Positions 5,027 to 6,121 of a stretch of 40,616 nucleotides of DNA are shown here, piece after piece. The notes below the pieces were generated by a model. It saw only the letters and a list, made by a program, of their open reading frames with translations, did not search any database and was not told the origin of the DNA. The position numbers were made by a program, and so were the translations under genes. Position 1 is the first letter of the stretch. Each line of letters opens with the position of its first letter. The DNA is from Pseudomonadales bacterium (GTDB lineage: Bacteria > Pseudomonadota > Gammaproteobacteria > Pseudomonadales > Azotimanducaceae), in NCBI GenBank assembly GCA_028281005.1, contig JANQKS010000104.1, forward strand, positions 1 to 40,616, given 5' to 3'.

Positions 5027-5386
5027 ATGAATCTGAGCAAAACTCTGATGACCTTAATGTTGGCTGCTGGTGTTTTGGGTTTGGCTGCCTGTGGTCAATC
5101 TGGTGACAGCGCGCCAAGCAGTGCACCGAGTGCACCGGAATCGGCTGCCGAAACGGCGGGTGACGCCATGAGTGACGCCCAAGACATGGTGGAAAACGTT
5201 ATTGATGAAGCCCAAGAACAGGGCGAAGCGATGATGGATGAAGTCACCGAGCAAGGCGAAGCATTGGCTGAGGAGGCGAAAGAAAAAGGCGCTGAGCTGA
5301 TGGAAGACGCCCAACAAGCTGCGGAAGATGCTATGGAAAAGGGTTCTGAGGAACTCGGCTCCGCGCTCGATAGCCTGCAACAGTAG
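5027..5386 (+). CDS. Small helical lipoprotein
   Basis: A 119-residue predicted lipoprotein. The signal peptide ends in the lipobox L-A-A-C with Cys22, so the mature protein is about 98 residues and lipid-anchored. After a Ser/Ala/Pro-rich linker (about 25-40) the rest is one highly charged amphipathic helix with an imperfect period of about 11 residues (EQGEAMMDEVTEQGEALAEE, then EKGAELMEDA), resembling LEA-like or apolipoprotein-like helices. Position +2 after the cysteine is glycine, so there is no Asp retention signal and an outer-membrane location is likely. AGGAG precedes the ATG. Function is unknown; an envelope or stress role is a guess. Confidence 0.82.
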   Translation: MNLSKTLMTLMLAAGVLGLAACGQSGDSAPSSAPSAPESAAETAGDAMSDAQDMVENVIDEAQEQGEAMMDEVTEQGEALAEEAKEKGAELMEDAQQAAEDAMEKGSEELGSALDSLQQ

Positions 5387-5479: not shown

Positions 5480-5959
5480 TTACAATAGGCTAGGCAAACG
5501 TTCCGCAATGTCTTCCGGGGTGGTTTGCGGACCAATCCTCTCTATCACCTGACCGTCTTTCCCGACTAAAAATTTGGTGAAGTTCCACGGGATGTCTTCG
5601 TTACCGTCTTCACCCGGTGCTGCGGCGCGCAGCATTTTGTACAGTTCACAGGCACCGTCGCCGTTCACTTCAATTTTGGCGAACATCGGAAAGTTCACGT
5701 CAAATTTGCTCAGTGCAAACTCTAAGATTTCTTCGCTGGTGCCTGGCTCCTGTGCACCAAACTGGTTGCATGGAAAGGCTAAGACGGTAAAGCCATCGGC
5801 TTGATGTTGTTCTTGCAGAGTACGCAACCCGGCGTACTGGGGGGTGAGGCCTCAGCGGCTGGCGACGTTTACCACCAGACACAGAGTGTCTTTGTAGATG
5901 CTGAAATCGACCGCTTCACCGGTGATGGCATCCATCGTCAAATCATGAAATTGGGTCAT
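5480..5959 (-). CDS. Selenocysteine-containing glutathione peroxidase
   Basis: A complete 159-residue glutathione peroxidase if the in-frame TGA at 5852-5854 is read as selenocysteine 36. The start ATG at 5959 has an AAAGGAC site. Residues 29-42 read VVNVASR-Sec-GLTPQY, the family's active-site motif with Sec in the catalytic position. The other tetrad residues are present: Gln70 in CNQFGAQE, Trp125 and Asn126 in PWNFTKFLV. The enzyme reduces hydroperoxides, with glutathione or thioredoxin as likely reductant. Translation is unbroken on both sides of the TGA, and the family motif is otherwise intact, so a simple nonsense mutation is unlikely. An automatic annotation would give only the 115-residue C-terminal part from a TTG at 5827. 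Confidence 0.88.
5819..5838 (-). promoter_or_regulatory. Candidate bacterial SECIS hairpin
   Basis: Counting the T of the TGA as base 1, bases 17-23 (AGTACGC) pair perfectly with bases 30-36 (GCGTACT) around the loop CGGGTT. Position just downstream of the UGA and a G/U-containing apical loop are what SelB-binding bacterial SECIS elements show. The hairpin lies inside the coding region, as in other bacterial selenoprotein genes. Confidence 0.7.
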
Positions 5960-6121
5960 GGTATGTCCTTTAAATGGTGCATGCATATAACATGGGTTAG
6001 GCGTCGCGAATTGTGTGCTCATATGCACAGCGCGATGCAGTGCGCATGGTAGCGTGCCCGCCGGGATATGGGTACTATCCCCGCCCCTGGGGAGAATTAC
6101 TTACTTGAAAGGAGAATAACT

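Follow-up and report, generated by a model that had tools for sequence, protein, structure and literature searches.

Within a glutathione peroxidase (GPx) gene of a Pseudomonadales bacterium lies an in-frame TGA, which raises the question of whether the codon ends a broken gene or is read as selenocysteine (Sec). The window, i.e. the whole stretch of DNA that was analyzed, comprises 40,616 nucleotides (GCA_028281005.1, contig JANQKS010000104.1). On its minus strand, the GPx frame runs through 35 codons, the TGA at 5854-5852, 123 further codons and a TAA at 5482-5480, the TGA being codon 36 of 159. The standard code splits this locus into two open frames of 35 and 115 aa. The following features were assigned:

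5480 to 5959, minus strand: predicted selenocysteine glutathione peroxidase gene, ATG 5959-5957 to TAA 5482-5480, 159 residues, putative Sec36.
5966 to 5971, minus strand: Shine-Dalgarno-like AAAGGA, six bases upstream of the ATG, read directly in the sequence.
5852 to 5854, minus strand: in-frame TGA, a predicted selenocysteine codon occupying the catalytic position in VVNVASR-U-GLTPQY.
5819 to 5838, minus strand: bacterial SECIS hairpin AGTACGC-CGGGTT-GCGTACT, 7 bp with a 6-nt loop; conservation and covariation significant, energy not.
5826 to 5831, minus strand: SECIS apical loop CGGGTT, G at loop position 2, fitting the model in the available passages of PMC13188914.

The initial annotation had claimed that read-through of the TGA joins a 35-residue N-terminus, preceded by a good ribosome binding site, to the downstream frame and gives a 159-residue GPx with the active site VVNVASR-U-GLTPQY. 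The coordinates, the N-terminus and the ribosome binding site were all recovered as it described them. The read-through protein matched Pfam GSHPx (PF00255) over residues 4-111 (E 8.4e-38, 128.7 bits, cut-off 27), and this match covers both sides of the TGA. Two NCBIfam equivalog models also matched, each below its own cut-off, and thus no named GPx subfamily was assigned. The catalytic tetrad of the GPx family consists of Sec or Cys, Gln, Trp and Asn, and the window protein contains U36, Q70, W125 and N126. The last three are at the positions claimed earlier; Gln70 was counted by eye in FPCNQFGAQEP and, by analogy with GPX4, is presumably the tetrad Gln. The active-site pattern with TGA occurred once in the window and in none of 100 dinucleotide shuffles. 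Searches of the window with Rfam and ARAGORN gave no match and no tRNA, respectively. Adjoining the GPx gene, positions 5027-5386 encode a small predicted lipoprotein in which Ala, Glu and Met are abundant; its apolipoprotein-like match is weak and does not reach the cut-off.

An open reading frame from the TTG at 5827 does exist, and the locus could be read as encoding two separate peptides, the downstream one of 115 aa starting at this TTG. However, that start would fall inside the hairpin, and the product would have neither the catalytic residue nor the first strands of the family match that spans the TGA. In comparisons with the four nearest relatives, pN (0.13-0.24) was lower than pS (0.54-0.84) on either side of the TGA, which also argues against two peptides; we give this reading practically no chance. 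General reassignment of TGA in the source genome is unlikely because TGA is an ordinary stop in the window, terminating 8 of the 16 picked ORFs, and the same ORFs contain 91 TGG codons.

The Sec machinery was then considered, the initial annotation having proposed that the gene is a selenoprotein. All of selA, selB, selC (tRNA-Sec) and selD, which it had named, were found in the source genome (5.1 Mb, 135 contigs, 98.7% complete). SelA scored 537 bits to TIGR00474 (cut-off 268), and its gene lies directly before selB (451 bits, cut-off 242), whose product retains the C-terminal winged-helix domain. The tRNA-Sec, with anticodon UCA, scored 71.7 bits (gathering 47) and selD 277 bits (cut-off 125). 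The available text of PMC1273633 names selB together with selC as the signature of Sec decoding. In the selD of this genome (L170:9056-11407), a pyridine-nucleotide-disulphide oxidoreductase domain is fused in front of the SelD part, and a similar N-terminal SelD extension is mentioned for cyanobacteria (PMC1273633). A DUF222-HNH endonuclease gene lies on the opposite strand between selB and tRNA-Sec (L001:3354-4619); in some relatives, e.g. G025, the distance from selB to tRNA-Sec is less than 100 bases.

The split into frames of 35 and 115 aa, and the TGC found at the same position in one relative of the same genus, would agree with the TGA being a nonsense mutation or a sequencing error in a dying pseudogene. 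A search of 58 genomes with the GPx protein gave a match in 52. Among the 37 genomes classed by the search tool as same-genus, including the source genome itself, 30 carried the TGA (one of these genes, in G020, is a fragment), one had Cys (G036), five gave no match and one gave only a distant non-TGA match. Neither of the two results that the initial annotation had listed as speaking against Sec was obtained: selB and selC are present, and close relatives are not all of the Cys type. A TGA match was also present in 1 of the 21 other genomes of the order (G039). Conservation of UGA at a redox position in orthologues, which is a criterion for selenoproteins, was therefore observed. The same TGA recurs in many other lineages, pN is well below pS downstream of it, and the hairpin is conserved. 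The conservation of the TGA already refutes a pseudogene or an error, to which we assign next to no probability.

The distribution of selB was compared with that of the TGA gene, in counts whose genomes are not independent samples. A selB above the cut-off was found in 26/31 TGA-GPx genomes and 5/27 others (p 8e-7), and at completeness of at least 90% in 21/22 Sec-GPx genomes versus 4/22 others (p 2e-7). Within the genus, the corresponding values were 25/30 versus 2/7 (p 0.009) and, at 90% completeness, 20/21 versus 2/4 (p 0.06). For tRNA-Sec, the association within the genus was not significant (21/30 versus 3/7, p 0.21); one tRNA-Sec tally used stricter filters than this count. Fifty further Sec-GPx genomes were hand-chosen from at least 120 stretches matching the pattern, and selB above the cut-off was present in 46 of them and in 2 of 14 control genomes; the four without it were G062, G075, G104 and G105. 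Five of the 31 TGA-GPx genomes had no selB above the cut-off, one of them (G009) though 96% complete (520 contigs).

The strongest local evidence for Sec is the SECIS hairpin, which was absent from the initial annotation. Counted from the TGA, the hairpin starts 13 nt downstream and the loop starts 20 nt downstream. The bacterial SECIS model in the available passages of a 2026 review has a loop of 3-9 nt, a stem of 4-16 bp, a G in the first two loop positions, a distance of 16-37 nt from the UGA and an MFE of at most -7.5 kcal/mol (PMC13188914). The window hairpin fits this model, with a 6-nt loop, 7 bp, G at position 2, a distance of 20 nt and -9.1 kcal/mol. Folding energy itself was rejected as evidence, being ordinary in comparison with both dinucleotide shuffles (140 of 200 fold as well, z +0.6, not significant) and synonymous recodings (56% of 20,000 fold as well). 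Among the 20,000 recodings, 79 again contained the exact 7-bp stem.

Conservation and covariation were more informative than energy. Codons +5 to +10 after U, the six core codons, did not vary at all among the 28 same-genus Sec genes, whereas each of the 48 other conserved degenerate codons did (mean top-codon share 0.60). This set consists of 30 orthologues minus L027 (another family) and L046 (Cys), with the G012 gene and the G020 fragment left out. All 7 stem pairs were kept in 26 of the 28 genes and 6 pairs in the other 2. For covariation, 149 loci were reduced to 130 distinct stretches (L038 was dropped for an N, the rest were duplicates), 111 of which carry one of two main loops. Stem pairs 2-7 of these 111 were standard pairs in 99.7% of cells, a value that leans towards the hairpin because the genes were selected on the letters of their loops and the window gene served to define the stem. 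Two-sided, compensatory stem changes were found in 10 of the 111 sequences versus 0-2 in six controls in which the 3′ side was shifted by 1-3, the counts being of sequences and not of events. The remaining 19 genes have other loops, and in several of them a hairpin in a different register can be made out by eye.

The five TGA-GPx genomes without selB above the cut-off, together with the ordinary hairpin energy, would also suit a decoding of the TGA that needs neither SelB nor selenium, through a generic near-cognate suppressor or as Trp or Cys. Against this, TGA is a working stop in half of the picked window ORFs, and the source genome holds the full Sec machinery. The hairpin, moreover, is conserved only with the TGA and has decayed in the Cys orthologue, and seven other genes of this genome have a TGA at a redox position. 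Such suppression is very improbable. The proposal that the TGA encodes Sec is supported by the sel genes, by the conservation of the TGA and by a hairpin that is both conserved and covarying, and we put at roughly 0.96 the probability that the window gene encodes a single-copy, monomeric-type GPx with a catalytic selenocysteine.

The computed results are the reading frame, the sel genes and the conservation of both the TGA and the covarying hairpin; we infer Sec insertion, its efficiency, the substrate and the reductant as follows. The ribosome would translate 35 codons and then meet the UGA. SelB carrying Sec-tRNA(UCA), bound to the downstream hairpin, would insert selenocysteine instead of allowing termination, and the ribosome would then finish the 159-residue enzyme. 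The selenol would reduce hydroperoxides and be recycled by thiols, probably glutathione.

The Cys orthologue of the same genus was analyzed separately. The GPx gene of G036 (L046, G036:C57) has TGC in place of TGA; 4 of the 7 stem pairs are kept and the loop letters CGGGTT remain. Both selB and tRNA-Sec are still present in this genome. A quick, unrooted protein tree of 92 rows placed the G036 gene on a long branch (0.99) within the main clade of Sec genes, with SH-aLRT values of 92 and 94 (not starred). This position suggests a Sec-to-Cys change, accompanied by a decaying SECIS.

Two forms of the loop were found among the 130 distinct Sec-GPx genes, AGGTCT in 81 and CGGGTT in 30. They differ in three linked synonymous codons, GCA/ACA-GGT-CTG versus GCC-GGG-TTG (codons 7-9 after Sec, window 5833-5825). 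Codons 8-9 of the 115 distinct genes encoding Gly-Leu were GGT-CTG in 84, GGG-TTG in 30 and mixed in 1, and this single mixed-loop gene has a different stem. The loop form switched at least 4 times on the protein tree. A tentative explanation, which we hold to be possible but rather doubtful, is that SelB reads the loop bases and intermediates fail, so that a loop would have to change all at once, by recombination or through a brief Cys stage, and the two forms would be alternative recognition signals for Sec insertion. No description of the two forms was found in the available passages of PMC1088965, PMC2398784, PMC1794560, PMC1273633 and PMC13188914. An organism-wide loop dialect read by SelB was also considered and was weakened by the seven other TGA genes of the source genome, which have different candidate loops. 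A TGA before the GPx loop core occurs at 10 places in the source genome, 9 of them with only 2-3 stem pairs.

The pattern scan for Sec-GPx returned at least 120 stretches, and the taxonomic spread is a lower bound: among the matches listed were Gammaproteobacteria, Alphaproteobacteria, Myxococcota/Deltaproteobacteria, Acidimicrobiia, Planctomycetota, Brachyspira and Bacillota. The window-type loop was also present in the K189A clade (L139, L162), in marine gamma proteobacterium HTCC2089 (L164) and in Pseudomonadales or Gammaproteobacteria records. Among cultured bacteria, Ilumatobacter nonamiensis YM16-303 carries a TGA-GPx that belongs to the main clade (L077). One clade unites GPx genes of Gammaproteobacteria, Alphaproteobacteria, Actinomycetota and Myxococcota (support 94, not starred), and this sharing by four lineages suggests lateral spread of Sec-GPx. 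A plasmid search for GPx gave 184 matching records, all below 60% identity.

Bacterial Sec-GPx has been known since 2005-2006, and the window gene is a further example. According to the available passages of these sources, five Sec-GPx sequences were reported from the Sargasso Sea metagenome (PMC1088965), the GOS ocean survey counted 40 Sec versus 3,287 Cys GPx homologues (PMC2398784), Treponema denticola Gpx is a bacterial Sec-GPx (PMC1794560), and the 2026 review has a Sec-GPx row (PMC13188914). The GOS counts agree with the initial annotation, which had called Sec uncommon in bacterial members of the family. As far as their descriptions go, the Sargasso and GOS sequences and the Treponema denticola enzyme resemble the window gene in having catalytic Sec and a SECIS just after the UGA (PMC1088965, PMC2398784, PMC1794560). 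By the same descriptions, the former are short reads and the latter belongs to a spirochaete, whereas the window gene is in a whole genome with sel genes.

The source genome was further searched for other TGA-containing genes. Seven of its 21 AhpC/TSA matches hold exactly one in-frame TGA (contigs C112, C91, C55, C66, C70, C28 and C110; loci L260-L266), in every case at a redox position (TSG-U, U-PYC, U-PAC, U-PFC and three U-GC). With C substituted for U, all seven matched AhpC-TSA over the cut-off. Each has a candidate hairpin with the loop 20-21 nt after the TGA, picked as the best of many; three of these hairpins are weak alone (-3.4 to -3.7 kcal/mol). TxxU, UxxC and UGC types are listed in the part of the GOS table that was available (PMC2398784). 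A Sec formate dehydrogenase was rejected as the reason for the sel genes, as the 12 Fdh-alpha match rows included none above the cut-off and none with an internal stop. The 11 AhpD-like match rows likewise included none with an internal stop. With its seven TGA-containing AhpC/TSA genes, the genome appears to be selenoprotein-rich. Since seven AhpC/TSA genes carry a TGA and the Fdh-family matches carry none, Sec would be used for peroxide and thiol chemistry and not for formate dehydrogenase, the Sec trait being apparently FDH-independent. The selenoprotein-rich groups in the available passages of the 2006 survey do not name this part of the phylum (PMC1794560).

The type of the enzyme and its probable reductant were assessed by comparison with known GPx. 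The best PDB match was the plant Cys enzyme GPX5 (2p5q, E 3.4e-42). GPX4-type (phospholipid hydroperoxide) GPx, the native catalytic residue of which is Sec, matched the window protein end to end (2obi, E 2.2e-35), and GPX1 matched more weakly (2f8a, E 3e-20). Unlike GPX4, the window gene has a bacterial SECIS inside its coding region. Cys-type bacterial GPx belong to the same Pfam family, but in each of the 17 that were read from other families of the order, the active-site Cys is accompanied by a second Cys in an F-C motif, which is presumably the place of the resolving Cys. At this place the window protein has the stretch F-A-L-S-K-F with no Cys, and the second Cys is absent also from the G036 Cys orthologue and most Sec-GPx. 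This absence is not general to Sec-GPx, because, among 140 distinct Sec proteins, 12 from Planctomycetota and Bacillota do have the F-C Cys (3 of the 140 are without the NQF landmark, and the 12 were counted by eye from 16 flagged). As the window protein has no resolving Cys and the source genome contains gshB (407 bits), glutathione, as opposed to thioredoxin, is probably the reductant.

Standard annotation would give a truncated 115-residue GPx or two fragments at this locus, although the gene most probably encodes a complete selenoenzyme. With its two loop forms and its one Sec-to-Cys change accompanied by hairpin decay, the orthologue set provides a natural test set for SECIS rules. Less expected were the two loop forms themselves and a selenoprotein-rich, apparently FDH-independent gammaproteobacterial genome. 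In this uncultured marine-type gammaproteobacterium, Sec would serve the chemistry of peroxides and thiols.
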